Part shown: piece by piece, positions 8,825 through 43,204 of the stretch
How the letters are laid out: each line of letters opens with the position of its first letter
How positions within the stretch are numbered: position 1 is the first letter of the stretch
From: Leadbetterella sp.
Lineage (GTDB): Bacteria; Bacteroidota; Bacteroidia; Cytophagales; Spirosomataceae
Length of the DNA stretch: 44,035 bases
Direction of reading: 5' to 3'
NCBI GenBank assembly: GCA_021740125.1
Contig: JAIPAJ010000007.1
Location: 1-44,035, forward strand
Notes under the pieces: model-generated
Database searches by the model: none
What the model was told of the DNA's origin: nothing
Seen by the model: the letters and a program-made list of their open reading frames with translations, nothing else
Made by a program: the position numbers and the translations under genes

Positions 8825-10093
8825 TTATTTTTTTGTATTTGAAGTTTTTCTTTCAAAATAATAAAACGAAGCGAGTACCATCAAGAAATATGTAGCCGCT
8901 AAGGCATATGAACCATAGATGAAGAAGTTGACATTGGTGGTTTTGTTTTGGAAAAAGTTTTTGTAGAAAAGCACAAGCAAACTTCCAAAGTAAGCATAAT
9001 AGTCTGCCAAGGTTATCATAAACCCCATAGTTCCAGAATATTTAAATGCTGCCAACATACGTTCAAAATAAATGCTATTGCACATAGAATACGCCACATA
9101 TGCCCCAAAACCTACACCAATTAGCCAAAGTATTTGGTTTATGATGTCGAGTTGATATAGTAAAGTTGAGGCTCCAATTATAGCTGATCCTAATAAAAGC
9201 AAACTCTGAATCACAAAAAATGCCTTTGCGTGATTTCGGATAAGCCTCATGGAAGACATTAGTAAAAGTACGACAACAGCGATAGGGATTTCCGTTTTAG
9301 TAAAGAGAGCCGTTTGTCCACCATAGCCTAATTCTTGTAGGATTTCTGGCATAAAATTGTCTCTAAATTCTCGATAAGCTGTAAGCAAAACATAAGAAAT
9401 GATAAACAAAACCAAGCCTATTCCAAATTCTTTTATAAATGCTTTTCTGGCTGATTTATCCATGGGCAATCGTTCGACGCGGTCCAGTTTGTCGGCTTCG
9501 TTGGGTTTTGGAACTTGGGCCAAAAACCAAACTGAAATAGCCAGCGGAATATACATTACAGAATCCGCCACAAATGGCATCAAAAATTCGGATACATTAA
9601 AACTGCTCAATACCCATTTACCGATGCTTTTTGCAAATCCTGAGCCGATAATAAAAGAGGCTGTCAGTGCTGCCACTAGCAAATCTGTACTTTTTCTGCC
9701 TTCCAAGAAACCTAATATAACACCATAAAATAAGCCAAGAGGTAAACTACCCAGAAAAACAAAAATTAGATTGTAGGGAGCTGGAGTTAAACCAAAAAAT
9801 AACATACAAATCCAGGAAAGACCTGTGAAAAGTAGCAGTCCTTTGGCTCGATTTTCTGGTTTCATTTCTGAAACAATCTTTACGCCAATGCCTTTCGAAA
9901 CAGCAAAACCCAATACTTGAGCCGTGATTATGAGTATTTTGAAATGTATTCCCCAGAAATATAATTCTTCAAAGGTAGCTGCCGTGTAGGCCCTTCGGAA
10001 CGGATAAAAGCACAAATAAGTACAGAATGCGGCAACTGCTGCAAAGAGCGTTTGGACAGAATAGGGAAGGTTTGAAATTCGTTTTGAGAGCAA
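8825..10093 (-). CDS. DUF5690 / MFS-like inner-membrane transporter
   Basis: A 422-residue protein with about twelve hydrophobic segments and a central cytoplasmic loop (residues about 195–215, rich in charge, KPNEADKLDRVERLP), the usual 6+6 layout of the major facilitator superfamily. The N-terminal FCTYLCFYPFRRAYTAATF recalls the sugar-phosphate antiporter group and matches what I know as DUF5690. No binding-site residue can be tied to a substrate. The adjacent TIM-barrel lipoprotein gene on the same strand suggests a carbohydrate or polyol. The start ATG at 10,093 gives MLSKRISNLPYS with a first membrane span right after, which is reasonable. Confidence 0.8.
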   Translation of the reverse strand: MLSKRISNLPYSVQTLFAAVAAFCTYLCFYPFRRAYTAATFEELYFWGIHFKILIITAQVLGFAVSKGIGVKIVSEMKPENRAKGLLLFTGLSWICMLFFGLTPAPYNLIFVFLGSLPLGLFYGVILGFLEGRKSTDLLVAALTASFIIGSGFAKSIGKWVLSSFNVSEFLMPFVADSVMYIPLAISVWFLAQVPKPNEADKLDRVERLPMDKSARKAFIKEFGIGLVLFIISYVLLTAYREFRDNFMPEILQELGYGGQTALFTKTEIPIAVVVLLLMSSMRLIRNHAKAFFVIQSLLLLGSAIIGASTLLYQLDIINQILWLIGVGFGAYVAYSMCNSIYFERMLAAFKYSGTMGFMITLADYYAYFGSLLVLFYKNFFQNKTTNVNFFIYGSYALAATYFLMVLASFYYFERKTSNTKK

Positions 10094-27328: not shown

Positions 27329-28603
27329 ATGTCTATTAACGAGGATTTGCAAATTGTGATATGTGGTTTGGGATATGTTGGACTACCATTGGCAGTTGAA
27401 TTTGGTAAAAAACATCCAACGATTGGTTTTGATATTAATAAGCAACGAATTGCGGAATTAAACAAAGGATTAGATAAAACACTTGAGCAAACTCCTGATG
27501 AAATCCAAAGTGCCAAGCTTTTAAGTTTTACTTCAGATATCAAAAATTTTGAGTTGCTTCCAGTTTCAACAGTATTTATTGTTACCGTTCCTACCCCCAT
27601 TGATGCATATAAAAAACCCGATTTAAAGCCATTAATTTCCGTTTCAATGACTATCGGGGAAGTTCTAAAAAAAGGCGATGTAGTTATTTATGAAAGCACG
27701 GTTTACCCAGGCTGCACAGAAGACGACTGTGTACCTGTTTTAGAAAAATACAGTGGACTGAAATTTAACCAAGATTTTTTCTGTGGTTATTCTCCTGAAA
27801 GAATCAATCCAGGGGATAAAAAAAATACCCTGACCAAAATCCTAAAAATTACTTCTGGCTCTACGCCTGCAATCGGGGAATTTGTCAATGATTTGTATGG
27901 AAGTATCATAGAAGCAGGTACTTATCAAGCCCCTTCTATCAAAGTAGCGGAGGCGGCCAAACTCATAGAAAACTGTCAAAGAGATGTCAATATTTCATTT
28001 GTGAATGAGCTGGCCCTTATTTTCGAGAAAATGAATTTAGATACGACCGAGGTGCTCAAAGCCGCGGGTACCAAATGGAATTTTCTCAAGTTTCAGCCAG
28101 GTCTTGTGGGTGGGCATTGCATTGGAGTGGATCCCTATTACATGCTTTACAAATCGGAGCAACTGGGTTATTATCCTGCTCTGATTGGTTCTGGAAGACG
28201 TATTAATGACAACATGGGTGTTTTCGTAGCCAACAAAGTGGTGAAATTAATGATCAGCAAAGGCATCAACGTGAAGGATTCTAAAGCTTTGATTTTGGGC
28301 TTTACTTTCAAAGAAAACTGCCCAGATATCCGCAATACCAAAGTGATAGATATCTACAACGAGCTAAAAGATTTCGGTATCAAAACTGACCTCTACGATC
28401 CCTGGGCCGACAATGAAGAAGTGCAACACGAATACGGTATTGGGCTTACTCCAGTATTGAATCAAAAGTACGATTTGATTATCCATGCCGTCAACCACCA
28501 AGCTTTCGAAACGCTAAATATCGCAGATTTTGCTGCTGAAAGTCATGTGTTATTTGATGTTAAAAGCACTCTGGATAAGTCTTTGGTGGATGCTCGGTTG
28601 TAG
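27329..28603 (+). CDS. UDP-N-acetyl-hexosamine dehydrogenase (WbpO/TviB type)
   Basis: This enzyme oxidises C6 of a UDP-sugar to the uronic acid using two NAD. The 424 residues have the UDP-glucose/GDP-mannose dehydrogenase layout: IVICGLGYVGLPLAVEFGKK (NAD loop, near 8–27), VIYESTVYPGCTEDDCVPVLE near 115, GYSPERINPGDKKNTL near 151, and the catalytic Cys264 in GLVGGHCIGVDPYY. The EDDCVPVLE and GYSPERINPGD stretches point to the TviB/WbpO branch acting on UDP-GlcNAc or UDP-GalNAc rather than UDP-glucose. It has a TAATTTTG box at 27,294–27,301. It is the first gene of the surface-polysaccharide locus. Confidence 0.92.
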   Translation: MSINEDLQIVICGLGYVGLPLAVEFGKKHPTIGFDINKQRIAELNKGLDKTLEQTPDEIQSAKLLSFTSDIKNFELLPVSTVFIVTVPTPIDAYKKPDLKPLISVSMTIGEVLKKGDVVIYESTVYPGCTEDDCVPVLEKYSGLKFNQDFFCGYSPERINPGDKKNTLTKILKITSGSTPAIGEFVNDLYGSIIEAGTYQAPSIKVAEAAKLIENCQRDVNISFVNELALIFEKMNLDTTEVLKAAGTKWNFLKFQPGLVGGHCIGVDPYYMLYKSEQLGYYPALIGSGRRINDNMGVFVANKVVKLMISKGINVKDSKALILGFTFKENCPDIRNTKVIDIYNELKDFGIKTDLYDPWADNEEVQHEYGIGLTPVLNQKYDLIIHAVNHQAFETLNIADFAAESHVLFDVKSTLDKSLVDARL

Positions 28604-29024: not shown

Positions 29025-30125
29025 ATGTCAAAACTCATAGATATCATAGCCGGAGCACGCCCCAACTTCATGAAGATTGCTCCCATTATCGACGCTTTTA
29101 AGAGCCACCAATTCGAAAAAAAAGGAATAAACTTCCGCCTAATACATACCGGTCAGCACTATGATAAAAATATGAGTGAGACCTTCTTTGATGAGCTGGG
29201 CATACCCCATCCAGATATCAACTTGCAGGTAGGCTCAGGTACTCAGGCAGAACAAACAGCCAAGATAATGATGGCTTATGAACAAATTTTACTAGAAAAA
29301 CCTTCCAATCTTTGTATTGTCGTAGGAGACGTGACTTCCACCATGGCTTGTTCTATTGCTGCCAGAAAACTCCATATAGACGTGGCACATATTGAAGGGG
29401 GTATCCGCTCTTATGACGAAACCATGCCCGAAGAAATAAATAGGAAGGTCACCGACGCCATTACCAATTATTTCTTTACCACATCTGAGGTAGCCAACCA
29501 AAACCTAAGAAGGGAAGGCATAAAGAAGGAAAAGATTTTTTTTGTGGGCAATACCATGATAGATACCCTGCTCAAGAATATTCCTCGGCTTAAAGAACCT
29601 AAGATTTGGGCTGAAAATGGACTAAAAGAGCAAGAATACATTGTGATGACCCTGCATCGGCCTGCCAATGTCGATGATCCTGCAAATCTACTTAATCTCG
29701 TAAAAATAGTCAGTGAAACTGTGGCTCCCAACAAAATAATCTTTCCAATACATCCACGTACCCGCAAAGTGTATGAAAGCCTTGATCTGCAGCCTGAGAA
29801 TATCATCCTCTCCGAACCCATGGGTTATTTGGAATTCAACTATTTAGTTAAAAATGCCAAGGTGGTCATTACTGATTCTGGTGGAATCACTGAAGAAACC
29901 ACCGTCATGAAGGTGCCATGCTTGACGCTTAGAGACTCCACAGAAAGACCTGAGACCTGTACCATAGGCACAAACCAACTCATAGGCACCGACCCGAGCA
30001 AACTGATAGAACCTTTAAAGGATATTTTTGCTGGAAATTGGAAAAAAGGAGAAATCCCTGAGCTTTGGGATGGAAAAACTGCAGATAGGATTGCGGAGAT
30101 ATTGGAAAGGATATTAAAAAACTAA
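29025..30125 (+). CDS. wecB: UDP-N-acetylglucosamine 2-epimerase (non-hydrolysing)
   Basis: The enzyme turns UDP-GlcNAc into UDP-ManNAc for surface glycans. The 366 residues show AGARPNFMKIAPI near 10, HTGQHYDKNMSETFFDELG near 41, VVGDVTSTMACSIAA near 99, HIEGGIRSYDETMPEEINRKVTDAI near 123 (active-site acid cluster), TLHRPANVDD near 209 and TDSGGITEETTVMKVPCLTLRDSTERPET near 285, all diagnostic. Paired with the dehydrogenase, it could give UDP-ManNAcA. It is transcribed rightwards with a 421-bp repeat-bearing gap before it and a 375-bp gap after it, so it may have its own promoter. Confidence 0.96.
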   Translation: MSKLIDIIAGARPNFMKIAPIIDAFKSHQFEKKGINFRLIHTGQHYDKNMSETFFDELGIPHPDINLQVGSGTQAEQTAKIMMAYEQILLEKPSNLCIVVGDVTSTMACSIAARKLHIDVAHIEGGIRSYDETMPEEINRKVTDAITNYFFTTSEVANQNLRREGIKKEKIFFVGNTMIDTLLKNIPRLKEPKIWAENGLKEQEYIVMTLHRPANVDDPANLLNLVKIVSETVAPNKIIFPIHPRTRKVYESLDLQPENIILSEPMGYLEFNYLVKNAKVVITDSGGITEETTVMKVPCLTLRDSTERPETCTIGTNQLIGTDPSKLIEPLKDIFAGNWKKGEIPELWDGKTADRIAEILERILKN

Positions 30126-30500: not shown

Positions 30501-31046
30501 ATGGATACCCATAAAAAAGATAATTTGACCACTAACCATACTAGTGAAAATTCTACCCGCAGCTGGTATGTTATTTACACAAAACCCAGGCATGAAAAAA
30601 AAGCTGCTGAAATGCTCCAATCTATGGGTATTGAGGCCTATTGCCCTCTGAAAATACAAACCAAACAATGGTCTGACAGGAAGAAAGTTGTGGAGGTTCC
30701 TTTATTCAATTCTTATTTATTTGTAAACATAACCGAAGCCAACAGGGCAGCCGTTTTTGCGGTGTCCAGTGTGGTAAGGTATATCTATTGGTGTGGTGTA
30801 CCAGCCATAGTCAGAAATCGAGAAATAGCAGAAATAAAACGCTGGCTTAATGATTTTGATCATGATGAGTTAGTTGTAGATCATTATAAAGCAGAGCAGA
30901 AAGTGAGGATACTTTCAGGAAGTTTTATCAACCAAGAAGCCAAGATTGTAAAGCAACAAGGTAAACATTTGGTCATGACTTTGGAAGGTTTAGGTTTGGT
31001 TTTAAGAGTAAAGCTAGATCAGATGATATTGGAGAAGGCGGAGTAG
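30501..31046 (+). CDS. UpxY-type NusG-like transcription antiterminator
   Basis: A 181-residue NusG paralogue of the kind that in Bacteroidota opens capsule operons to full transcription. The NGN domain (about residues 20–125) starts with the family signature SWYVIYTKPRHEKKAAEMLQSMGIEAYCPL and has a basic QWSDRKKVVEVPLFNSYLFV strand. A KOW-like strand region near 130–175 ends the chain (AEQKVRILSGSFINQEAKIV). An unusual basic, Asn/Thr-rich start (residues 1–20) precedes it. UpxY proteins act on the leader of their own operon; the 0.6-kb leader that follows would be its target. It is not the housekeeping NusG. Confidence 0.88.
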   Translation: MDTHKKDNLTTNHTSENSTRSWYVIYTKPRHEKKAAEMLQSMGIEAYCPLKIQTKQWSDRKKVVEVPLFNSYLFVNITEANRAAVFAVSSVVRYIYWCGVPAIVRNREIAEIKRWLNDFDHDELVVDHYKAEQKVRILSGSFINQEAKIVKQQGKHLVMTLEGLGLVLRVKLDQMILEKAE

Positions 31047-31681
31047 GTATTGGTGACTGGTTGTTAGTTACTGGTTATTGGTAACTGGTTATTAGTTATT
31101 GGTGTTTACGAGTGTTGAGTTGTGAGTTGTATTGAGAACAATGGCACTTCTAGCATACTGGTTGTCACATCGAGGACAAGAAATTCAGATGATAATCTGT
31201 GTGAAATTGCAATCGATAGGTCAAGAGAAGTGTCAGATCGATCACAATGAAATTTAGATGATAATCTGAATGAAATTGCGACCTAAGTTCTAGAGAAGTG
31301 TCACATCGAGCACAATGAAAATCAGTTGATAATCTGAATGAAATTGCGACCTCAGGTTTCGAGATGCACTCTAAAATGAATTTAGAACTAGTTGTCTTCA
31401 ACATTTGAAAACGTGTTCTTGAACTGACAGCAAGAAAACGAACGGAACGTTAAGAAATTGTAGATCGAAAGATTTTAGAGAGTTATAAATAAGGTTTATG
31501 CGTTACCAGTAACAAATAACCATTTACCTATAACCAAAAAACAAGTCTCGAAAATGTGACTGAGAGGGCGAAGCTTTGGGAAGACCGTTTTTATTTTATT
31601 TTATTAGATCTTTATTTTAAGTCTTTTAGTAGTTTTGTGTTTATTTATCTTATTCTAGAGAATCCAAGGAAAATCAAATCT
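31047..31681. other. 635-bp repeat-rich leader between the antiterminator and export genes
   Basis: No convincing gene. It opens right after the antiterminator stop with TTGGTTATTGG-type low-complexity repeats (31,047–31,110), then three 68-bp tandem units, and near 31,500 an inverted counterpart (TTACCAGTAACAAATAACC) of the opening repeat. A TAGTTTTG box (31,630–31,637), 45 bp before the export gene ATG at 31,682, gives a likely transcription start. Structured leaders are expected where UpxY-type proteins act. Confidence 0.7.
31163..31366. repeat. 68-bp tandem repeat, three copies
   Basis: Copies start with TGTCACATCG or TGTCAGATCG at 31,163, 31,231 and 31,299, a period of exactly 68 bp. 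Each holds GATAATCTG inside an imperfect hairpin (AGAT-GATA-ATCT core) and a GAAATTGCGACC segment. The copies differ at several positions, so this is an older array than the 90-bp one. Confidence 0.88.
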
Positions 31682-33994
31682 ATGTTTCAAAATATTATCA
31701 AAAGTTTTTTAGTACTCTTATGCTTGAATATTTCTTGGAGTTCATTTGCCCAGTCGGTAGATGAATTGTCAGATGAGGATATAAAAAATTTCATGCAACA
31801 AGCTCAAGATAGTGGCATGTCAGAAGAACAATTGGCTGCCGCAGCAGCAGCAAAAGGCTTTACCGCCAGTGATATAATAAAGTTCAAGGAAAGAATGAAC
31901 AAGCTTCAGTCTGATAAGAAATCTGTAGGTGTCAAAAATTCAACAAGAGAAAGAACGGTCGATTCAACTGAGATAGAGTCTGCTAGTAGAGATTCAAAAA
32001 GACAAATCATTGATGAGAAAGCAGAGACACGAAGGCTCAAAATATTTGGTTTAAACATTTTCAATAACCAAACCCTGAATTTCGAACCTAATCTCAATAT
32101 CGCTACGCCTAGAAATTATGTATTAGGTACCAATGACGAGTTGAGTATTGATATCACAGGCTATGCTTATGCCCATTACGATGCCAAAGTCAATGCTGAT
32201 GGAAACATAAAAATAGAAAACCTTAATCCAATTTTTGTGGCTGGGCAAACGCTGGAGCAAGCCAAGATAAAGATTGTACAAAGACTCAAAACCCTATTTG
32301 GAGGTTTGGGAAGTGGAGGTCTCAGTGCAGATGTGACTCTGAGCAAAATTCGCAGCATTAAAGTGACCGTTATTGGTGAGGCTGTTTTTCCAGGTACCTA
32401 TACGGTTACTTCCTTGGCTACTGCTTTTAATGTACTGTATGCCGCTGGTGGGCCTACGGATATTGGTTCATTGAGAAACATTGAGGTTTTTAGAAAAGGC
32501 AAAAAGGTTAAAACTTTAGATTTATATGATTTTCTATTAAAAGGCGATCTCACAGACGACATTGGTTTGATAGACCAGGATGTGGTTTTAATACCTTATG
32601 TAGATAAACGGGTTACTATCAACGGAGCAGTTAGAAATCCCAAGATTTATGAACTCAAAAATGGGGATAATTTAAATGCGGTCCTTTCATTTGCGGGTGG
32701 TTTCAACGAAATGGCTTATGCCAAGGCCATCCGAATAGACAGGGCCACAGATACCGAAAAGAAAATTTTGACGGTACAGAAAGATGAATATGCTAAGTTT
32801 GTGCTTTACAAAGGAGATATTATTGTCGTTGACTCTCTTTTAGAAAGATACGAAAACAAAGTAAGTGTTTCTGGAGCCATTTTTAGAGCGGGTAAATATG
32901 AGCTAGAACCGAATATGACCATCAAAAAGCTATTAGCACAAGCAGAAGGACTAAAGCCCGAGGCATTTAAAGAAAGGGTTTTGTTGTACAGAGAAAAACC
33001 CAATGCTGACCCAGAACTTATTCCCTTGAATCTTACTCAAATATTAGATGGAACTGGTACTGATATCCTATTGCAAAAGAACGATTCCCTTTTGATAAAA
33101 TCTTTTGACGAACTTAGAGAGAAAAGGACCATACAAGTAGATGGAGAAATCAATAAACCTTCGGTGATTAATTTTGTAGATAATCTTACTGTATCCGATG
33201 CCATTATGTTGGCAGGTGGATTTAAAGACGGAGCCAATGCCTCTCGCATAGAAATAGCCCGACGAGTAAAAGCGGATGGGGGAGATGCCGATCAAAACGT
33301 ACAAATTGTCAAAATAGACGTAAGTCCCAACTTGGGTATATTAGAAAAAGACAAAAATATGCTTCTCCAAGCTTTTGATAGAATATACGTGAGAAAAATG
33401 TCGAGATATGAGCTTCAAAAGACGGTATCTATCTCAGGGGAAGTAAATTATCCAGGCCCATATACGCTCAATGACAAAAAAGAACGTATTTCGGATCTCA
33501 TTGAAAAAGCCGGTGGAATCAAAGGTCAAGCAGATTTGGCAAGTGCCAAGTTTACCCGCAACGGTATCCAAATGGGCATTGATCTCAAAAAAGCATTTGA
33601 CGACAAAAGCAGTAACCAAAACTTATTGCTTAACCCAGGGGATATTTTAGATATACCGAGACGAAAAGAAACGGTAACCATTATAGGTAATGTGTATAAT
33701 CCTATTACAGTTCCTTATGAGCCTACCCTGGTACTTAAGGATTATTTAAGTTTGGCAGGCGGAACTAATGACTCTGCTTATATCAAAAAGATATATGTAA
33801 AATATGGAAACGGTAGATTAAGTAAGACCAAATATTTTTTGGGAATTAAGACCTTTCCGAAAATTGAAAATGGGTCTGAAATATATGTACCAGTTCACAA
33901 AAAACAAAGATGGTCAGCTGCAGAACGAATTGCAGTAAGTTCTTCATTGGTTTCTATTGCCACTATAATGGTAACAATTATAAGAATTTTTTAA
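31682..33994 (+). CDS. Polysaccharide export protein with multiple SLBB domains (Wza-like)
   Basis: An outer-membrane polysaccharide translocon of the Wza/BexD group. The signal peptide MFQNIIKSFLVLLCLNISWSSFAQ ends before SVDEL. Then a helical region (DELSDEDIKNFMQQAQDSGM…) is followed by a PES domain (NYVLGTNDELSIDITGYAYAHYDAKV) and several SLBB-like beta repeats with recurring GxVxxPG turns (VTVIGEAVFPGTYTV, VTINGAVRNPKIYEL, VSVSGAIFRAGKYEL, VSISGEVNYPGPYTL, VTIIGNVYNPITVPY). A C-terminal hydrophobic segment (SSSLVSIATIMVTIIRI) ends the protein. At 770 residues it is longer than E. coli Wza, as is usual in Bacteroidota. The frame is open to 31,556, but the signal peptide fixes the start at 31,682. 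Confidence 0.94.
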   Translation: MFQNIIKSFLVLLCLNISWSSFAQSVDELSDEDIKNFMQQAQDSGMSEEQLAAAAAAKGFTASDIIKFKERMNKLQSDKKSVGVKNSTRERTVDSTEIESASRDSKRQIIDEKAETRRLKIFGLNIFNNQTLNFEPNLNIATPRNYVLGTNDELSIDITGYAYAHYDAKVNADGNIKIENLNPIFVAGQTLEQAKIKIVQRLKTLFGGLGSGGLSADVTLSKIRSIKVTVIGEAVFPGTYTVTSLATAFNVLYAAGGPTDIGSLRNIEVFRKGKKVKTLDLYDFLLKGDLTDDIGLIDQDVVLIPYVDKRVTINGAVRNPKIYELKNGDNLNAVLSFAGGFNEMAYAKAIRIDRATDTEKKILTVQKDEYAKFVLYKGDIIVVDSLLERYENKVSVSGAIFRAGKYELEPNMTIKKLLAQAEGLKPEAFKERVLLYREKPNADPELIPLNLTQILDGTGTDILLQKNDSLLIKSFDELREKRTIQVDGEINKPSVINFVDNLTVSDAIMLAGGFKDGANASRIEIARRVKADGGDADQNVQIVKIDVSPNLGILEKDKNMLLQAFDRIYVRKMSRYELQKTVSISGEVNYPGPYTLNDKKERISDLIEKAGGIKGQADLASAKFTRNGIQMGIDLKKAFDDKSSNQNLLLNPGDILDIPRRKETVTIIGNVYNPITVPYEPTLVLKDYLSLAGGTNDSAYIKKIYVKYGNGRLSKTKYFLGIKTFPKIENGSEIYVPVHKKQRWSAAERIAVSSSLVSIATIMVTIIRIF

Positions 33995-34421: not shown

Positions 34422-35456
34422 ATGGATACACAACCCGATGTTGTAAATATTGATTTTAGTGCAATTTGGAGGATAATCAAAAAAGGAAAGTTATTTGTTA
34501 TTGGAATCACCTTGTTTTTTACATTTAGTGGAATTATTTATGCTTTCACTCTAAAAGAAGAATTTCAAGTTATTGGGAAAATATTGCCCGAAATCCAAAG
34601 TAAAGGTGGATCTATAGGTCAATTTGCCGGTCTTGCAGCATTGGCGGGAGTTGATCTGGCTGGTGCTGGATCAGGTGTTGACGCAGTTCGTCCTGATTTG
34701 TATCCTGATGTTCTAAAAAGCACTCCTTTTTTTTTAAGTCTGTTTAAAGAAAAGGTCAAAAACAAAAATAATAAGTCAACGGATTTTTTAGAATTTTACA
34801 ATTCAGAGGTTTTAAATGGTAAAGTTAAAGTAGACGATTTAAAAAATAAATATCCCAAAAGTGGAGATTATATTAGTGTTAATAGACAAATTGAGAAGAA
34901 TATAAAGGATTTGAAGGAGAGGATTATTTGTAATTATGATAAGAAAGTTGGTGTGATTAGTATTTCAGTCAAACTTCCAGACCCGATTGTGGCTGCAATT
35001 GTTACTAGGTACAGTATGAATTATTTAACCCAATATATAATTGATTACAGAATTGAAAAACAAAAACGTGATTTAGAATTTTTAAAAGAAAAGTTGGATT
35101 CTGCAAAAGGTAAATATTTTAATAATCAAAACAAGAAGGCCTCTTATACCGACAAAATGCCTTTGAATGCACTTCGTTTTCAATCTGCCGATTTACAAAG
35201 AGAACGTATTGAGTCTGAATATAAAATATCTTCAACTTTTTATAATTCTTTATTACAAAAGTATGAGGAGGCAAAACTAAAAATGCAGCAAGAAACTCCA
35301 GTCATTAAAATTTTAGAACCTCCCGTTGTGCCAAATGTAAAAAGCGAACCTAAAAGGGCCTTGATAATATTCATGTTTATTTTTTTGGGATTAATAGTTT
35401 CATTTATTTTTATTTTTGTTTTTAGGCCTAATGACGAAAAAATCTTTAATTATTGA
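34422..35456 (+). CDS. Wzz-type chain-length determinant
   Basis: A 344-residue inner-membrane co-polymerase of the Wzz/PCP family that sets polysaccharide chain length. The first membrane segment is near residues 27–47 (KLFVIGITLFFTFSGIIYAF) and the second near 317–338 (RALIIFMFIFLGLIVSFIFIFVF), with a large periplasmic helical region between them. The Pro-rich motif before the second segment (PVIKILEPPVVPNVKSEPKR) is the family signature. No cytoplasmic kinase domain or C-terminal Tyr cluster follows, so it is of the Wzz, not Wzc, type. The start MDTQPDVVNIDFSAIWRIIKKGK is well placed. It is located between the export gene and the sulfation pair. Confidence 0.92.
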   Translation: MDTQPDVVNIDFSAIWRIIKKGKLFVIGITLFFTFSGIIYAFTLKEEFQVIGKILPEIQSKGGSIGQFAGLAALAGVDLAGAGSGVDAVRPDLYPDVLKSTPFFLSLFKEKVKNKNNKSTDFLEFYNSEVLNGKVKVDDLKNKYPKSGDYISVNRQIEKNIKDLKERIICNYDKKVGVISISVKLPDPIVAAIVTRYSMNYLTQYIIDYRIEKQKRDLEFLKEKLDSAKGKYFNNQNKKASYTDKMPLNALRFQSADLQRERIESEYKISSTFYNSLLQKYEEAKLKMQQETPVIKILEPPVVPNVKSEPKRALIIFMFIFLGLIVSFIFIFVFRPNDEKIFNY

Positions 35457-35686
35457 ATAATTATTCTAATATTAAAAATATTCTGAAAGGCATAACTTAG
35501 AGATTTTTTGGTACAAATAATGCATTAAATTATGCTTGAAATTTTAACCAACTTTTTACAATAGGTGGGAGTTGAATATTGACCAAAACTTTTCTTTATT
35601 AGCTTAACTAGAGAGTTTAGATCAAATTATTCTATAGATTTGGAATTAAGAGTTGTTAAGGCTTTAAATCATTTAGTAAATTAAAG

Positions 35687-36220
35687 TTGGAAATATTAAA
35701 AAGAAATACAGGAAAAGTTATTTGGATGACAGGTCTTTCGGGTTCTGGTAAAACGACACTCAGTTCACTTTTAAGGTTAAAACTCAATGGTTTGGGGATA
35801 AATTCTGAGATTTTGGATGGTGATTTTCTGAGGTTAGGCCTTAATTCTGATTTAGGTTTTTCTATTATGGATAGATTGGAGAATGTGAGAAGAGTCGCAG
35901 AAGTTTCTAAAATTCTTTCAAATGTAGTAGATGTTGTTTTTGTTGCATTGATTACTCCAACCGATGAAATGAGAAATTTGGCAAGGAATATTGTAGGAAA
36001 TGAGAATTTTAAGTTAGTGTTTATTGATTCTTCGTTAGAACAATGTGAATTGAGAGATGTTAAAGGGCTTTATAAGTCAGCAAGAAAAAATCAAATTGCA
36101 AATTTCACCGGTATAACTTCAGAATTTCAAAACCCATCTAGCTATGATTTAAGAATAAACACTGAAAAATTCTCAACTTCTGAATGTGTTCAATATTTTC
36201 TTGATAATATTGAATTATAG
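35687..36220 (+). CDS. Adenylylsulfate (APS) kinase
   Basis: The enzyme phosphorylates APS to PAPS, the sulfuryl donor. The 177-residue P-loop protein keeps the CysC signatures: MTGLSGSGKTTLSS (16–26), ILDGDFLRLGLNSDLGFS near 43, MDRLENVRRVAEVSKIL near 64, and VFIDSSLEQCELRDVKGLYKSARKNQIANFTGI near 111, including the APS-binding Arg and Phe positions. The start is the TTG at 35,687 (MEILKRNTGKVIW). It is five bases upstream of a sulfotransferase gene and 230 bp after wzz; no ATP sulfurylase is in the window. Thus APS must come from elsewhere. A CysC-like kinase acting on another diphosphate is a less likely alternative. Confidence 0.92.
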   Translation: MEILKRNTGKVIWMTGLSGSGKTTLSSLLRLKLNGLGINSEILDGDFLRLGLNSDLGFSIMDRLENVRRVAEVSKILSNVVDVVFVALITPTDEMRNLARNIVGNENFKLVFIDSSLEQCELRDVKGLYKSARKNQIANFTGITSEFQNPSSYDLRINTEKFSTSECVQYFLDNIEL

Positions 36221-36225
36221 GTTAA

Positions 36226-37050
36226 ATGGATAAAAATTATGAAAAAAAAGTGGTAGTTATTTTAGGGATGATGAGGTCAGGTACATCATTTTTAGCAAGC
36301 TGGTTAAGATTTCAGGGAATTGATTTTGGAAATGAATTTATTGCTCCAAATAAGCTTTGGAACGAGGAAGGTTTTTTTGAAGAAATCGAATTAAGAAAAG
36401 TATTAGAAAAAGTCAAAAAGAGAACGGATAACTTATTCAATAGACTTTTAATAAATAAAATCTGTAAAGTAAATTTATACGATAAAGAAAAGCAACTTAT
36501 TCCAATTATTATCAATAATTATTTGAAAAATAAAAAGCAATGGGGTTGGAAGAATCCCTTTGCATCTTATATATGGAAGGATGAACTTGATAGTATTTTC
36601 AAAGAAGTCGTTGGTGAAAAAAATTTGATGATAATCGTAGGGTTTAGGGATTTTAATAGTGTTGTTGACTCATTAATGAGGGTAACCTTTTTTTCAAAAC
36701 ATTTTCTCTTAAGAGTCCATTGTAAACTTTTTCCAAATAGATATGCGAATAAGTTTTTAGATATGTGGATAAAATATAATTCTTCTCTTTTAGTTTTTTT
36801 TGAGGATAATCAACCCAATAATAATATCTGGTTTTTAAGTACTATTTATCTTAACAATAATTCAAAAATTGTTTATGATAAATTGGTCAATTTTGGATTT
36901 AATATAGAATATACAGAGTCGAGTAAACTTTTTAAAAAGGAACTATTCGGGCGGTCGGCAAACATAGACTATAAATTTAATCCAGAATTATTTGATGAAG
37001 CAACTTCAATTTTAAATAAATTGAAGAAGATTGAATCTTCATGTTTTTAG
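36226..37050 (+). CDS. PAPS-dependent sulfotransferase
   Basis: The 274-residue cytoplasmic protein resembles the sulfotransferase family. Its N-terminal VVVILGMMRSGTSFLASWLRFQG (residues 9–30) is the 5'-phosphosulfate-binding loop (xRSGTSxL). Further hints are WNEEGFFEEIELRKVLEKV, QWGWKNPFASYIWKDELDSIF near 106 and an IIVGFRDFNSVVDSLMR stretch near 137, equivalent to the 3'-phosphate-binding region. It has the adjacent APS kinase gene upstream with a 5-bp gap, so the pair is almost certainly co-transcribed and supplies and uses PAPS, most likely to sulfate the polysaccharide. The acceptor cannot be read. Confidence 0.86.
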   Translation: MDKNYEKKVVVILGMMRSGTSFLASWLRFQGIDFGNEFIAPNKLWNEEGFFEEIELRKVLEKVKKRTDNLFNRLLINKICKVNLYDKEKQLIPIIINNYLKNKKQWGWKNPFASYIWKDELDSIFKEVVGEKNLMIIVGFRDFNSVVDSLMRVTFFSKHFLLRVHCKLFPNRYANKFLDMWIKYNSSLLVFFEDNQPNNNIWFLSTIYLNNNSKIVYDKLVNFGFNIEYTESSKLFKKELFGRSANIDYKFNPELFDEATSILNKLKKIESSCF

Positions 37051-37161: not shown

Positions 37162-38586
37162 ATGAAAAAAGTAATTATATTATCAGGTGTTTTTTTATCT
37201 TCAATGAGTTTTTCATTCGCTCAAAATATTGGTAATGTAGGTGTTGGTACAGTTAATCCACATGAGTCTGCAATGCTCGATATTTCATCAAATGGTAAAG
37301 GATTATTGATTCCGAGAATGTCTTTACAAAATCGACAAAATATAAAAAACCCTGCCATCGGTTTGAAAGTTTATCAAACGGACGGACAAGCAGGAGAGTA
37401 TTTGTTTAATGGAAGCAAATGGGAGAGAATTTTAACCTCCAACGAGGCTTATTCTATCGCTGTCGCAAATCCTGACAATTGGTCTATTACTGGTAATTCT
37501 GGAACAAGTCCCACTTCTAATTATATTGGTACTGCCGATAACCAACCTTTAGTTTTTAAAGTAAATGCTGTTGAATCTGGATTAATAAATCAAGATGGAA
37601 GAACTTATTTTGGTTATAGAGCTGGTCAAAATGCTACAGGTCCTAATAACACAGGAATAGGGCTTTTCGCTCTTAATAAGGTTACTGGACAAAGTAATTT
37701 AGCTTTTGGATCTTATGCTCTTGGAGTTAATGAGGGTGGAAATACAAATGTCGCTATAGGTAACGAGGCATTAACTTCAAATGTAAGTGGACATAATAAC
37801 CTTGCTATTGGTTCATCTTCACTAAGAAACAATGTTAGTGGAGGTTATAATATTGCTATTGGTATTAATAGTTTGTTTGGTGCTGCATCAGCCAATCCTA
37901 CTGAAAATATCTCGATTGGAAATGAAGCAATGTATAATGCTCAATCTTCTTCCGCACAAAATGTTGCCATCGGTGCAAATGCAATGAGAGCTTCACTTAC
38001 TGGAGCTAGAAATGTAGCAATCGGCTATGATGTTTTTAACTCAGCAGTTGGTTCAGGAAATATAGGAATAGGGTATCAAGCTGGTAAAGGGTTTATTGGA
38101 AATAATAATTTATTTATTGCAAATACTAATACAACTGCTCCACTTATCAATGGTGATTTTTCAGCAGGTACTTTAAAAATTAATGTTAAACCTCAGGTTG
38201 GTAGTTCAAGTACTTTAGGTAGTCTCGCTATTGGCGACTTTGACGCCTTAACTTCACCCCAAATGACAGTGCCTAGCGGATACAGATTAGTAGTGCAGGA
38301 TGGAATTATTACTGAGAAGATTAAAGTTGCTTTGAGGTCTTCATTAACCGATTGGGCAGATTATGTGTTTAATGACGATTACAAATTAATGAAACTTGAT
38401 GAAGTAGAAAAATATGTAAAAAATAACAAACACCTCCCTAATGTCCCTTCAGCTGAAGATTTAGTAAAAAGTGGTTTGGATGTAGCTAAAATTAATTCTA
38501 AAATGATGGAAAAGATAGAGGAATTAACCCTTTATATAATCGAATTAAACAAAAGAATCATTCAGTTAGAAAAAAATAAACTCTAA
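37162..38586 (+). CDS. Secreted protein with YadA-head-like repeats and C-terminal coiled coil
   Basis: A 474-residue exported protein (signal peptide MKKVIILSGVFLSSMSFSFAQ). After a start typical of Bacteroidota tail-fibre-like proteins (GNVGVGTVNPHESAMLDISSNGKGLLIPRMS), residues about 150–320 contain many short repeats of the YadA/Hia head kind: NTGIGLFAL, NLAFGSYAL, NVAIGNEAL, NLAIGSSSL, NIAIGINSL, NVAIGANAM, NVAIGYDVF, spaced about 14–20 residues. The C-terminus (DYVFNDDYKLMKLDEVEKYVKNNKHLPNVPSAEDL, then a 30-residue heptad-like helix) resembles the intramolecular chaperone region of S74-type fibres, but I see no peptidase dyad. It probably forms trimeric surface fibres. It lies between the sulfotransferase and flippase genes; an odd neighbour in a glycan cluster. 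Confidence 0.85.
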   Translation: MKKVIILSGVFLSSMSFSFAQNIGNVGVGTVNPHESAMLDISSNGKGLLIPRMSLQNRQNIKNPAIGLKVYQTDGQAGEYLFNGSKWERILTSNEAYSIAVANPDNWSITGNSGTSPTSNYIGTADNQPLVFKVNAVESGLINQDGRTYFGYRAGQNATGPNNTGIGLFALNKVTGQSNLAFGSYALGVNEGGNTNVAIGNEALTSNVSGHNNLAIGSSSLRNNVSGGYNIAIGINSLFGAASANPTENISIGNEAMYNAQSSSAQNVAIGANAMRASLTGARNVAIGYDVFNSAVGSGNIGIGYQAGKGFIGNNNLFIANTNTTAPLINGDFSAGTLKINVKPQVGSSSTLGSLAIGDFDALTSPQMTVPSGYRLVVQDGIITEKIKVALRSSLTDWADYVFNDDYKLMKLDEVEKYVKNNKHLPNVPSAEDLVKSGLDVAKINSKMMEKIEELTLYIIELNKRIIQLEKNKL

Positions 38587-38642: not shown

Positions 38643-40085
38643 TTGTTTAAAAGCATTTCACATAATTTTTTATTAAATGTTGCAAGTCAAGGTTTAGTTG
38701 GAATCTTTGGGTTATTTTTACTCCCATTGTTCTTTAATTATTTAGGCGATTCCGACTTTGGACTATATTCTATCATATTAGTTGTATTCAATACTGCTGT
38801 CCTTTTAGATTTCGGAATTGGTAAATCTGTAACTTTCAATATAGCGAATAATATAACTGATAAATCATTTACAACCTCTGTAGTTTTATTCTCGTTTACA
38901 ATTACGTTTTTTTTGAGTTTATTATTGGTTTTGATTTATTTTGCAATTTCCAATTTTTATGAATTCAACTTTATTAATGTTTTAATTTCTCGTAATCTGT
39001 ATTTGTTTATTCCATTATCATTTCCAATTATCTTAATTTCAGGATTAGTCAAATCGGTACTAGAAGGTTATAATGAAATTAAGTATTCGATTTTTTTGAA
39101 ATTTTTTCTGAATATATCTTTATTTATAATACCTGCTTTGGGTGTTTTCTTCTCTTTAGGAATAAATTCAATTTTGTATTATATTTTGATTTTTAGAATA
39201 TTAATTATATTACCTTTTTTAACCGTTTTGTTACGAAGAATGAATTTTGATCTTCATAATAAATCTAGCTTTAACAAAAGAGCGTTTTTGAAATTTGCTG
39301 GATGGACTTCAACTTCAAATATTCTTACGCCTGTAATTGTTCAGTTCGATAAATTTCTAATTGTAGAATTCCTTGGAATTAGTCTTTTAGGATATTACAC
39401 ATTACCACTAGAGCTTATTAATGGCTTTTTAATATTACCTTCGGCTCTATCTTCAGTAATTTTTCCTAAATTTTGTTCTGGAATTATAAATTTATCTGAG
39501 AAAATTGTTATCCTAAATAAAAGCTTAAAGTATTTATTAATTTGTATCATACCAATATTTTTTCTAGCTACCTTTTTTTCATTAGAAATTTTGAGTTTTT
39601 GGCAAAATAATGTCTTCGCAATAAAAGCAAAAAATATATTTCCTATATTATTATTAGGGTCTATAATCTTTTCATTTGGATGGTTTTTAAGTAATTTTTT
39701 AATAGGAAACGGCAGAGCTGATATTCCTTCTAGGGTATTTTCTGTAGAGATACCATTTTATTTTTTAATCGCTTATTTTCTTACAAAAAAGTTTAATTTG
39801 GTTGGTATTTCAATTGCGTTTTTATTAAGAAGTATTATACAGGTTGGATTATATGTTTATTTTTTGTTTAAGATTCACAAAATAAATTTATTGAAAATTT
39901 TGTATCGTGATAAAATTCATATTTTAATCCTCGTTTTATTGGTTGGTACTGTTTTATTTAAATTAATAGTTATTAATAAAATATTATTTGGGTCAGTTAT
40001 ATTTTTAACATTGATTTATGTTGGTTTTTATCTTGTTTTAGAAAAAACTGAATTAGATGCCTTAAAGAAATTTATTAAGAAATGA
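38643..40085 (+). CDS. Wzx-type polysaccharide flippase
   Basis: A 480-residue inner-membrane protein with about twelve to fourteen hydrophobic segments, of the polysaccharide-transport (MOP) superfamily that flips lipid-linked repeat units. The N-terminal NFLLNVASQGLVGIFGLFLLPLFFNYLGDSDFGLYSI is typical of Wzx, and the charged loops (FDKFLIVEFLGISLLGYYTLPL) match the family's central region. The start is a TTG at 38,643, since no ATG is available before the first membrane segment. The 3' end overlaps the glycosyltransferase gene by 4 bp (ATGA), so the two are translationally coupled. Confidence 0.9.
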   Translation: MFKSISHNFLLNVASQGLVGIFGLFLLPLFFNYLGDSDFGLYSIILVVFNTAVLLDFGIGKSVTFNIANNITDKSFTTSVVLFSFTITFFLSLLLVLIYFAISNFYEFNFINVLISRNLYLFIPLSFPIILISGLVKSVLEGYNEIKYSIFLKFFLNISLFIIPALGVFFSLGINSILYYILIFRILIILPFLTVLLRRMNFDLHNKSSFNKRAFLKFAGWTSTSNILTPVIVQFDKFLIVEFLGISLLGYYTLPLELINGFLILPSALSSVIFPKFCSGIINLSEKIVILNKSLKYLLICIIPIFFLATFFSLEILSFWQNNVFAIKAKNIFPILLLGSIIFSFGWFLSNFLIGNGRADIPSRVFSVEIPFYFLIAYFLTKKFNLVGISIAFLLRSIIQVGLYVYFLFKIHKINLLKILYRDKIHILILVLLVGTVLFKLIVINKILFGSVIFLTLIYVGFYLVLEKTELDALKKFIKK

Positions 40086-41209
40086 AGATTTTAATATGTG
40101 CATTTTCATATCTTCCTGATAAAAACGGTGTAGCTTTCGCCGTTGATTATCATTATAAAATATTAAAAAAATTGGGGCACGATGTGAAGATTGCAACAGG
40201 TTTTAATGTTAATAGAAATAATTCTGATTATATTTTTCAATTTAAAGTTTCAGGAACCGGGCGAATTGGTAATAGATTTATTGGTGAAAAGAATGAATAT
40301 ATTGACTTTTTAGTTAATGGGGATTTTGATTATATTTTTTTCCATTGTTGGGAAATTTGGTCCACAGAGCTTGCAATTGATGCATTTGATCGTATAGCAG
40401 CCAAAAAGGTAATTTTTAGCCATGGTACTTCTTTCGATTTATTTAATTTAAGTTTTCTAGGAGTATTGAGGTTTCTTACTTTTTTACCTTATAGATTGAG
40501 ATTTTCCAAAAGGATTGAAAAATTTGATTACTATGTTTTTTTAACTTCATCAACCCAAAATGGAAGATTTTCAGATTACAAGTATATTAAGAATAAATCA
40601 AAGAAAAATTATTCTATCATTTCAAATGTAACTAACTTATTACCAATAAATTCTACAATAAGATTTAAAGAAAAATTTAACATAATTAGTTCTAAATTAG
40701 TAATATGTGTTGCGAATTATCAAAAAATTAAGCGTCAGAAGTTGGTTGCAAAGATTTTTTTGGATGCCAAAATTGAAGATTGTTCTCTTGTTTTCTTTGG
40801 TTCAGAAGAAAATGATTATTATTATGAGTTGCAAAGATTGTATGGAAATTATCCTAATATTTTTTTCTTACAAGAAATTTCTAAACAGGATATTCATTTA
40901 GCATATTTAGATGCTGATGCATTTTTAATGTTTTCTGAGACTGAAGCACAGCCTTTAGTCCTTTTAGATTGCTTAGCAACAAATCTGCCATTTGTTTCAT
41001 CAAATGTTGGCTGTATCCATGAAATTGAAGGAGGTTTAACTGCAAATACACCCCAAGAGGCGTCATCTTTACTTAGAAGTGTACTTCTCGATAGGAATTT
41101 AAATCTATTTCTCAGAGAAGCTGGGAAAAGAGAGTTTGAAGAAAAATATTCTCATCATTTATTAAAAGATAAATTTATTTTTCTTTTAAATGCATTATTA
41201 GAACTATGA
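40082..41209 (+). CDS. GT4-family glycosyltransferase
   Basis: A 375-residue GT-B glycosyltransferase. The N-terminal half begins MKILICAFSYLPDKNGVAFAVDYHYKILKKLGHDVKIATGF, with the usual Rossmann beta-strand. The C-terminal half has the nucleotide-sugar site in VICVANYQKIKRQKLVAKIF near 211, followed by the DADAFLMFSETEAQPLVLLDCLATNLPFVSSNVGCIHEIEGG block near 278, including the E-x7-E catalytic motif SETEAQPLVLLD. Sugar donor and acceptor are not readable. It overlaps Wzx and the polymerase gene by 4 bp each, so it is part of one coupled run. Confidence 0.92.
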   Translation: MKILICAFSYLPDKNGVAFAVDYHYKILKKLGHDVKIATGFNVNRNNSDYIFQFKVSGTGRIGNRFIGEKNEYIDFLVNGDFDYIFFHCWEIWSTELAIDAFDRIAAKKVIFSHGTSFDLFNLSFLGVLRFLTFLPYRLRFSKRIEKFDYYVFLTSSTQNGRFSDYKYIKNKSKKNYSIISNVTNLLPINSTIRFKEKFNIISSKLVICVANYQKIKRQKLVAKIFLDAKIEDCSLVFFGSEENDYYYELQRLYGNYPNIFFLQEISKQDIHLAYLDADAFLMFSETEAQPLVLLDCLATNLPFVSSNVGCIHEIEGGLTANTPQEASSLLRSVLLDRNLNLFLREAGKREFEEKYSHHLLKDKFIFLLNALLEL

Positions 41210-42492
41210 CTAAGAATCTCTTCACGACCGTAATTTCGATCCTTTTTTTTAATTTTATTTTTATTCAAAACTATACATTTAATCTAGGTTTTATAAATAT
41301 TGGATTAATAATTATTCCCATTTGTTTATCAATTTTTCTTTTTATTTATTCTGGAAGTGTAATCAAATATTATGATAATACAAATTTACCAATATTTATT
41401 TTTTTAGTTTATTTATTTATAAGAGGTACTTTTTCTGATGATATATTAGAAGCTGTGATTTATTTTTCTTATGTGGTTTTGTGTATTCTAATAATGTATC
41501 TTACCTATGTATTTACTAATTATGTTATTCAATTCTCGTTGATTAGACCAATATTAATTACTGTAAATTTATTATTGATCTTTAGTATTGGTATTTATTT
41601 TTATTTATCATGGATACTAACTCCTGAAGAGATATCAATACTTTTTACAGCTTTTCGAGAAGCTGGAGCACGTTCAAATCGTGAAATTACAAGTTTTGTT
41701 ACTTCTGAAAGTGGCACAATTAGATTTAATGGGTATTACTTTGACCCTAATTATTGGGCGATGTATGCTACTATGGCTTTAACAATTGTTAGCTGTTTTT
41801 CTATTATTTTATTTAAATCGAATCCCAAAAAAAGTTTATTTATTTTTCTTCTTATCATACCTTCTATTTTAGCAATTGTTTTAACATTTTCTAGAGGTGC
41901 AATACTTTCAATGCTTTTATCAAGTATTCTTTTGTTCTTTTTTTTGTATAAAACAAAAAGTGTCTTTTTCAAGTACTATTTTCTATTCTCTGCAGCTATT
42001 GTTTTTGTAAGCTCCTTTATATTTCTTTCTTTTTTAACAGACATTATTGAAACATTTGTTCTTAAGTTCTCAAATGAAAATGAAGCACTCGAAAATACTA
42101 GATCTAACATTTGGGGACTTTATATTAACCATTTGAGTAATGTAGAACTAGATAAATTAATTTTTGGGTATGGTTTAAAGAGAGATCCTAGTATTGAACA
42201 TATAAAAATGTCAACTCATAATTTGTTTTTGTATCTCATAGTTAAGCAAGGACTTTTAGGTTTATTTAGTTATTTGCTCATTATTTTTGTTTTTGTTAAA
42301 AGAAATTTATTTGTAATGAAAAATAATATTTTACACATTCTAAGTTCACTCGGCGTGTTAGCTATAATTTTTCAAAGTTTTTTTTTAGATCCTTTGTATC
42401 ACTTACCATTTTGGGTTTTAATTGCTTTTAACTCAAGTATAAAATATTATATAAAAAATGAAAAATTTAGCGGCACAAAATTATTGGGATAA
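41206..42492 (+). CDS. O-antigen ligase/Wzy-like polymerase
   Basis: A 428-residue inner-membrane protein with roughly ten to twelve hydrophobic segments and a large periplasmic loop (about residues 280–335), in which ENTRSNIWGLYINHL and LIFGYGLKRDPSIEHIKMSTHNLFLYLIVKQG fit the Wzy_C/O-antigen polymerase signature (GxG and H-N-x-x-L). FSRGAILSMLLSSI near 225 is also characteristic. Its place beside Wzx, Wzz and glycosyltransferases favours Wzy polymerase over ligase. The last 35 bases overlap the start of the methyltransferase gene. Confidence 0.9.
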   Translation: MTKNLFTTVISILFFNFIFIQNYTFNLGFINIGLIIIPICLSIFLFIYSGSVIKYYDNTNLPIFIFLVYLFIRGTFSDDILEAVIYFSYVVLCILIMYLTYVFTNYVIQFSLIRPILITVNLLLIFSIGIYFYLSWILTPEEISILFTAFREAGARSNREITSFVTSESGTIRFNGYYFDPNYWAMYATMALTIVSCFSIILFKSNPKKSLFIFLLIIPSILAIVLTFSRGAILSMLLSSILLFFFLYKTKSVFFKYYFLFSAAIVFVSSFIFLSFLTDIIETFVLKFSNENEALENTRSNIWGLYINHLSNVELDKLIFGYGLKRDPSIEHIKMSTHNLFLYLIVKQGLLGLFSYLLIIFVFVKRNLFVMKNNILHILSSLGVLAIIFQSFFLDPLYHLPFWVLIAFNSSIKYYIKNEKFSGTKLLG

Positions 42493-43204
42493 TTCTTATT
42501 CGGGGTTTAAATACTATGTTGAGAATGATTCAGTAACTAATTGGCTAAGTACAAAAATTTTGAATCTTGGAATTAAAAGTGTTTTTGAGTTTGGTTGTTT
42601 CCCAGGTAGATATCTTAGTTATTTAGGTTTAAAAGGATTTACAGTTAGCGGAATAGACTTAACTCCAAGAATTGATTTGGACTTCAAGGATTGGTTGAAT
42701 AATTTAGATATTTCATTTGATGAGATAATTAGAGATGACGCTATTAAATATACCGATAAATCCGAAAAGTTCTTTGATCTAGTATGTTCTTTCGGTTTTA
42801 TAGAACATTTTGAAAATTTTGAGGAGATTATTCTTTGTCATGATAGAATCTTAAAAAAAGATGGATACTTATGTCTGACAACGCCCAATTTTAAAGGATA
42901 TCTTCAATATAATTTACATAAATATTTTGACAGTATAAATTTAAGTCGACATTTTATACCCTCAATGGATCCTTTTATTTGGGCAGATCTATTAGAAAAA
43001 AGAGGATATAGTATTTTATATTGTGGGTACTTTGGAGGATTTTCATTTTGGGTTGATAAGGAGAAAAGATCGTTTTTTAAGAAATTATTATTGTATATGA
43101 TTTTAGGAATTTCAAAAATACCAGGTATGAGTAGGATAAAAAGTGGTAAAAATTACTCACCATTTTGTGGAATAATTGCAAAAAAAAATAATTATGAATA
43201 TTAG
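42458..43204 (+). CDS. Class I SAM-dependent methyltransferase
   Basis: The 248-residue protein has a methyltransferase fold: VFEFGCFPGRYLSYLGLKGFTVSGIDLTPRID near 41 (motif I with the GxxxG loop and the acidic ribose binder), a DDAIKYTD near 92, FFDLVCSFGFIEHFENFEEII near 103, and LKKDGYLCLTTPNFKGY near 131. The C-terminus carries a basic hydrophobic segment (FFKKLLLYMILGISKIPGMSRIKSGKN), which may associate with membrane. Methylation of a sugar or lipid intermediate is likely from its place. The ATG lies within the polymerase gene (35-bp overlap); there is no other good start. Confidence 0.87.
   Translation: MKNLAAQNYWDNSYSGFKYYVENDSVTNWLSTKILNLGIKSVFEFGCFPGRYLSYLGLKGFTVSGIDLTPRIDLDFKDWLNNLDISFDEIIRDDAIKYTDKSEKFFDLVCSFGFIEHFENFEEIILCHDRILKKDGYLCLTTPNFKGYLQYNLHKYFDSINLSRHFIPSMDPFIWADLLEKRGYSILYCGYFGGFSFWVDKEKRSFFKKLLLYMILGISKIPGMSRIKSGKNYSPFCGIIAKKNNYEY

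Follow-up and report, generated by a model that had tools for sequence, protein, structure and literature searches.

An adenylyl-sulfate (APS) kinase gene set next to a sulfotransferase gene inside a polysaccharide locus raises the question of what the two proteins sulfate, and whether they serve the locus in which they lie. This arrangement is found in Leadbetterella sp. (Cytophagales, Spirosomataceae; GCA_021740125.1) on a stretch of 44,035 bases, hereafter the window, that is one complete contig (JAIPAJ010000007.1, here C193) of a 3.74-Mb assembly in 267 contigs, estimated to be 77% complete. The original prediction, made from this DNA alone, read the pair as a dedicated supply of 3'-phosphoadenosine 5'-phosphosulfate (PAPS) for sulfating a bacterial surface polysaccharide, and this interpretation was found to be largely right: the two genes probably form a sulfation module that serves the Wzx/Wzy surface-polysaccharide locus around them. 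The boundaries given for both genes (Table 1), their shared strand and the five-base gap between them were confirmed.

The kinase scored 167.9 bits against the Pfam model APS_kinase PF01583 (cut-off 21.1), 177.0 against TIGR00455 (138.7) and 178.8 against NF003013 (163), and its closest relatives in the PDB are the CysN/CysC and PAPSS1 kinases, with E-values down to 2.7e-40. The canonical CysC motifs that had been claimed for it (DGDFLRLGLNSDLGF, ENVRR and KGLY...FTGI) were found in the translation. An alignment with CysC of M. tuberculosis and with human PAPSS1 showed the P-loop GLSGSGKT, DGD, RxGLN, ENxRR and KGLY...FTGI all to be present, and we take residues of these motifs to bind APS. 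The product is thus an APS kinase (CysC) by family, predicted to form PAPS from APS and ATP. It is the only strong APS-kinase match in its own assembly; the second PF01583 match of the genome was rejected as an APS kinase, its protein reading by eye as Ffh (440-residue frame).

Sequence alone is weak evidence for the neighbouring protein, and its identity as a sulfotransferase was therefore decided by family conservation and fold. No Pfam or NCBIfam model matched it at E ≤ 0.001, and the result against PF13469 (Sulfotransfer_3), with E = 0.36 and 11.5 bits against a gathering score of 27, over the P-loop only, counts against the assignment. PF13469 was matched by 20 of 26 family members at E ≤ 0.001, and PF00685 by three. 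The PAPS-loop motifs described in the original prediction proved to be conserved across the 26 aligned sequences, in which G14, M15, R17–S21, N46, G49, E52, W106, K109, P111, R141 and S149 are invariant and GMxRSGTS, NxxGxxE, WxWKxP and R-x7-S are invariant or almost so. The 5'-phosphosulfate loop (G14, M15, R17, S18, G19, T20 and S21) and the 3'-phosphate motif R141...S149, which presumably bind PAPS, are present and align with those of tyrosylprotein sulfotransferases.

The AlphaFold (AF2) model of this protein (predicted local distance difference test 86.6, predicted template modelling score 0.86) was best matched by VIA-align to human TPST1 (5wri_A; Z 14.5, root-mean-square deviation 4.1 over 210 residues), followed by sulfotransferase domains of polyketide pathways and heparan sulfate sulfotransferases. 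Rows 1 to 29 were sulfotransferases without exception, and the first other fold was adenylate kinase in row 30 (Z 10.8). Similarly, Foldseek grouped the model with PAPS sulfotransferases (best E 1.7e-6). The family profile reached CurM and tyrosylprotein sulfotransferases, including TPST1, with whole-sequence E-values of 7.8e-6 to 6.4e-5 and weak single stretches, and aligned K109-x-P111 and R141...S149 with TPST; entries that look like chance appear in its list from E 0.05 onward. No signal peptide or membrane helix was apparent by eye, which fits a cytoplasmic sulfotransferase. The protein is classed through fold and motif, and not as a member of PF13469, as a predicted PAPS sulfotransferase.

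ATP sulfurylase had been stated to be missing from the window, so that the pair would have to draw on APS made elsewhere. None was found among the 30 window proteins scanned, and a search of the remaining assembly located both cysD and cysN on contig C165, in the order cysH-cysD-cysN and without a kinase domain. Both CysD and CysN score above the cut-offs of their models; the match of CysN (416 residues) to the shared models stops where their CysN portion ends. CysH passes TIGR02055 APS_reductase (252.0, cut-off 235.3) and carries the CC...CxxC cysteines, and it fails the cut-off of TIGR02057 PAPS_reductase (149.6/254.2). Matches above cut-off to TIGR02055 and CysD were present in 13 of 13 genomes tested, ten of which belong to the genus; strong APS-kinase matches were found in only three of these ten (G000, G146 and G142, the last with internal stops), which leaves seven with CysH and CysD and no such match. 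Since CysH is of the APS-reductase type and these seven genomes show no strong kinase match, assimilation seems to be independent of it; as judged from sequence, cysteine synthesis should not need the window kinase, and the PAPS that it makes is most likely destined for sulfotransfer. The dedicated PAPS supply that was first proposed is supported by this single strong kinase, by the APS-reductase type of assimilation, by the ATP sulfurylase located elsewhere and by the association of the two genes across genomes.

This association was evaluated in 222 genomes of the family. The window sulfotransferase had a match in 15 of them, its own included, and an APS kinase was present in all 39 genomes with a sulfotransferase match compared with 14 of the 183 without one (Fisher p = 5e-32). 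The 39 are the union of those 15 and of 31 genomes matching PF13469 at E ≤ 0.001 (27 above cut-off); the own genome, in which PF13469 gave no matches, was counted through its own sulfotransferase. With at most 16 candidates scored per genome, an APS kinase (at least 53 bits) was credited to 53 of the 101 genomes with any PF01583 match, and the 48 with weaker matches only were excluded. Most of these weaker matches lie in frames of about 440 residues, the length seen for Ffh, while G154, G071 and G083, with frames of 177–183 residues, could hold diverged kinases; among the counted kinases, that of G128 is a contig-edge fragment and those of G142 and G153 have internal stops.

The two genes are also close to each other, at no more than 10 kb in 36 of the 39 genomes, at 13 and 25 kb in two more and on separate contigs in one. 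The window sulfotransferase has 14 further relatives in the family, the closest of which, in G104, is 36% identical, and for each of them an APS-kinase open reading frame (ORF) starts within 2 kb of the sulfotransferase start. Over 26 pairs, the protein distances of kinase and sulfotransferase were correlated (r 0.88, reached in 0 of 5000 Mantel permutations), as expected if both are inherited together; the kinase tree carries a long-branch warning that includes the branch of the window. Among named genomes, from which 80 relatives were kept of at least 221 (at least 590 matching stretches), an APS-kinase ORF adjoins the sulfotransferase relative in Mucilaginibacter, Siphonobacter, Dyadobacter, Paraflavisolibacter and Duganella, and such an ORF is present in 14 of the 23 loci L064–L086.

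With regard to the acceptor, a PAPS gene and a sulfotransferase set within a polysaccharide cluster give the window the gene content of a locus for sulfated-polysaccharide biosynthesis. The pair is preceded by genes for a uridine diphosphate (UDP)-sugar dehydrogenase, a UDP-N-acetylglucosamine (GlcNAc) 2-epimerase, UpxY, an SLBB export protein and Wzz, and is followed by those for a 474-residue repeat protein, Wzx, a GT4 glycosyltransferase, Wzy and a methyltransferase, after which the locus is truncated by the contig end. The flanks had been given as wzz and a run of flippases; Wzz does lie directly upstream, whereas the gene directly downstream encodes the 474-residue protein, and a single Wzx-type flippase follows from 38,643. 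In the related genome G104, the pair lies in a polysaccharide locus with an FkbM methyltransferase, GT9, a MurJ-type flippase, GT4 and a sugar transferase, and in G108 it is accompanied by MatE- and Polysacc_synt-type flippases, epimerase/dehydratases, a methyltransferase and GT2. The sulfotransferases of the window, G104, G108 and G175 form a supported clade (96/91), of which G175 is itself not in a polysaccharide locus. A surface polysaccharide is the best inference for the acceptor of the window pair from its locus context, which favours a glycan here and sets no rule for the wider group.

Table 1. Features of the polysaccharide locus in the window, with the basis of each assignment
Feature	Coordinates	Strand	Basis
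UDP-sugar 6-dehydrogenase	27329..28603	+	PF03721, PF00984, PF03720
UDP-GlcNAc 2-epimerase	29025..30125	+	PF02350 338 bits
UpxY-family antiterminator	30501..31046	+	NF033644 142.7 bits, cut-off 100
SLBB/Poly_export export protein	31556..33994	+	PF02563, PF10531
Wzz/GNVR chain-length determinant	34422..35456	+	PF02706 and PF13807 above cut-off
APS (adenylyl-sulfate) kinase CysC by family, 177 residues, TTG start	35687..36220	+	PF01583, TIGR00455, NF003013
Predicted PAPS sulfotransferase-fold protein, 274 residues	36226..37050	+	Family conservation, AF2 fold
474-residue repeat protein, function not assigned, signal-like N-terminus (by eye)	37162..38586	+	Without Pfam match
Wzx-type flippase	38643..40085	+	PF01943 42.6 bits, above cut-off
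GT4-type glycosyltransferase	40082..41209	+	PF00534
Wzy polymerase / O-antigen ligase family	41206..42492	+	PF04932
S-adenosylmethionine-dependent methyltransferase	42458..43204	+	PF13489

The UDP-sugar 6-dehydrogenase may be an N-acetylmannosamine dehydrogenase, judging from the neighbouring gene only. A homologue of the 474-residue, secreted-looking protein, 47% identical by blastp, was found in the polysaccharide locus of G108 (L023), near the kinase–sulfotransferase pair. The promoter/terminator scan gave 32 promoter-like sites against 25.1 (standard deviation 5.2) in shuffles, and one terminator-like site against 1.7.

The computed results cover the family of the kinase, the fold and motifs of its partner, the surrounding genes, the genes for APS supply and the linkage across genomes. 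From these a pathway may be proposed for which we infer catalytic activity, a sugar acceptor and sulfation before flipping. CysD and CysN, encoded on the other contig, would combine sulfate with ATP to give APS; some of this would go to APS reductase for cysteine, and the remainder would be phosphorylated to PAPS by the window kinase. While the repeat unit is still lipid-linked in the cytoplasm, the sulfotransferase would pass the sulfuryl group from PAPS to one of its sugars. Wzx would then flip the sulfated unit, Wzy would polymerise it under the control of Wzz, and the SLBB protein would export the product, while the 3'-phosphoadenosine 5'-phosphate (PAP) left over would presumably be removed by a CysQ-type phosphatase.

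Several observations, in addition to the PF13469 result above, weigh against this reading and are considered here with the alternatives. Elsewhere in the genus, in nine genomes, no relative of the window sulfotransferase was found, and in 14 genomes of the family an APS kinase occurs where no sulfotransferase was matched; a profile of the window sulfotransferase run on 13 of these 14 loci (G128 left out) gave one weak match (E 0.0031). Among named genomes, only 23 of the 80 loci with a relative hold an APS-kinase ORF, as counted within the retrieved DNA, in which some loci are short, and common ancestry is left uncorrected in both the Fisher and the Mantel test. PF00459, the family containing CysQ, was not found in the own, 77%-complete assembly; its absence was rejected as an argument against the pathway, given this incompleteness and its presence in every one of 19 other genomes that were examined. 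Two DHHA1 matches also turned up beside this question. CysH also scores above the cut-offs of two models that bear the name of PAPS reductase, PRK02090 (263.3/154) and, by a small margin, TIGR00434 (168.5/165.1), as it might if the kinase supplied PAPS for cysteine synthesis and lay next to the sulfotransferase by chance. This explanation is extremely unlikely, considering the pass of TIGR02055 with the CC...CxxC cysteines, the seven genomes of the genus that have CysH and CysD and no strong kinase match, and the linkage of the two genes across genomes.

As for the acceptor, a PF01943 flippase lies within 10 kb in only three of the 15 genomes with a match to the window sulfotransferase (the window, G104 and G108); in the other 12, where other flippase families were not searched and the contig of G096 is only 10 kb long, the nearest on the contig is some 67 to 530 kb away, or the contig carries none. 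The context therefore names no glycan acceptor for most relatives, and the idea that the pair always lies in polysaccharide loci was rejected on these 12 genomes and on four example loci (L064, L067, L080 and L075), one each from Siphonobacter, Mucilaginibacter, Dyadobacter and Duganella, whose ORF lists show by eye no obvious glycan cluster. Together with a Bacteroides sulfotransferase that lies beside putative PAPS genes and sulfates cholesterol, according to the available part of its report (PMC9417993), these cases would suit a pair whose PAPS-dependent sulfation is real, with a lipid or small metabolite as acceptor, and which sits in the locus without serving it. We consider this unlikely for the window, since there and in G104 and G108 the pairs are co-directional with and placed among flippase, glycosyltransferase and sugar-nucleotide genes, and the three belong to one clade, though with G175 outside such a locus. 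For a CysC-like capsule kinase, the principal rival is the Campylobacter phosphoramidate pathway, in which the kinase would act on another nucleotide and its neighbour would transfer a group other than sulfate; Cj1415 is, we assume, a CysC-like kinase of cytidine diphosphoramidate. In the portion available of the relevant account, capsule loci carry cj1415–cj1418 together with the transferases cj1421/cj1422, which between them produce O-methyl phosphoramidate and transfer it (PMC3907429). Nothing seen in the window points to this pathway, and it is very unlikely here: the kinase passes the apsK model, the partner has a modelled sulfotransferase fold, and no look-alike of an amidotransferase, glutamine kinase or cytidylyltransferase was found by Pfam, nor any partner of the cj1416–cj1418 type seen, among the 30 window proteins scanned, on a contig that ends within the locus. 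The sulfation module of the surface polysaccharide is thus retained as the preferred explanation for the window pair.

Beyond the window, the kinases fall into two branches. RxGLN was rejected as a marker of sulfotransferase-associated kinases, since many such kinases lack it, among them those beside sulfotransferases in L024, L025, L026, L028, L030, L033, L034, L066, L067, L077 and others. The aligned kinases of L025, L066 and L077 carry a five-residue insertion after KGLY, ahead of the TG motif, and have LTG in place of FTG. Where checked, pairs with kinases lacking RxGLN lie outside recognised polysaccharide loci. A rather doubtful proposal is that kinase and sulfotransferase form a mobile cassette of two genes in Bacteroidota, inherited as a unit, of which an RxGLN branch (the window, G104, G108 and G175) was built into polysaccharide loci, perhaps repeatedly. 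The Dyadobacter/Mucilaginibacter-type branch, whose kinases have no GLN and show the insertion and LTG, would then stand apart from such loci, with some other metabolite as its possible acceptor or even another nucleotide as its donor. What is new here is modest: the two-gene cassette recurs, its kinases are of two branches, and for most of its members no acceptor has been assigned.

Variants of the gene arrangement were also observed. The kinases of G104 and G108 are fused to DUF2061, and APS kinases with this membrane domain at the N-terminus were recorded at L021:8258-9133 and L023:3169-4029. In L029 (G208) and L031 (G190), an APS kinase is followed by two consecutive sulfotransferase-like genes (PF13469). 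The APS-kinase-like proteins of L152, L153 and L154 (G191, G211 and G214) lie near small genes that look by eye to be of the tail-collar type; two of them carry DGDECRxAFWPELGF, and no clear sulfotransferase was found there. Similarly, a broken APS-kinase gene with internal stops lies beside a tail-collar-looking gene in L145 (about 9626-10060) of G142, from the same genus.

Such gene pairs suggest that many more Bacteroidota are able to make sulfated products. They offer a compact, testable module together with a sulfotransferase group that is poorly detected by the Pfam model, and would aid in finding bacterial sources of sulfated glycans. The original prediction called this arrangement rarely reported for Cytophagia. 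This agrees with the open-licence PubMed Central literature, in which no report of a kinase–sulfotransferase pair in Cytophagia, Flavobacterium or Mucilaginibacter was found; the genes themselves are not rare, as the search across relatives recovered both in 39 of the 222 family genomes.

In the accessible parts of the literature, sulfated surface polysaccharides are documented in few bacteria, among them Vibrio, Cobetia, cyanobacteria and Kiritimatiellae. The report on synechan, as far as its available text goes, describes a sulfated extracellular polysaccharide of Synechocystis PCC 6803 and names sulfotransferase 21 times (PMC8205485); the likeness lies in a sulfated polysaccharide, and the producer is a cyanobacterium, unlike the window host. 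Bacteroides thetaiotaomicron belongs to the same phylum, and its putative PAPS genes BT_0412–BT_0415 adjoin the sulfotransferase BT_0416, as in the window; the difference is that the acceptor is cholesterol and that no polysaccharide genes are mentioned with them in the available part of that report (PMC9417993). The available sections on Cobetia marina KMM 1449 describe a sulfated capsule with PAPS genes and a sulfotransferase in the capsule locus (PMC11766843), an arrangement shared with the window; unlike the window, the bifunctional cysN/cysC, cysD, cysQ and a sulfate permease are all local, and the capsule is of the ABC-transporter type. In Vibrio sp. KMM 8419, cysC, cysN, cysD and sulfotransferase genes lie in the capsule cluster, the polysaccharide is reported to be sulfated, and the authors regard PAPS genes and sulfotransferases together as a hallmark, as given in the accessible portion of that paper (PMC11641403). 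So far as that portion allows comparison, its ABC-transporter capsule with a full local cysNDC differs from the Wzx/Wzy locus of the window, for which sulfation is predicted and which has cysC only, with ATP sulfurylase on another contig; both have cysC and a sulfotransferase within a polysaccharide cluster. Given these capsule-locus precedents in Vibrio and Cobetia, the arrangement in the window is of an already known kind.

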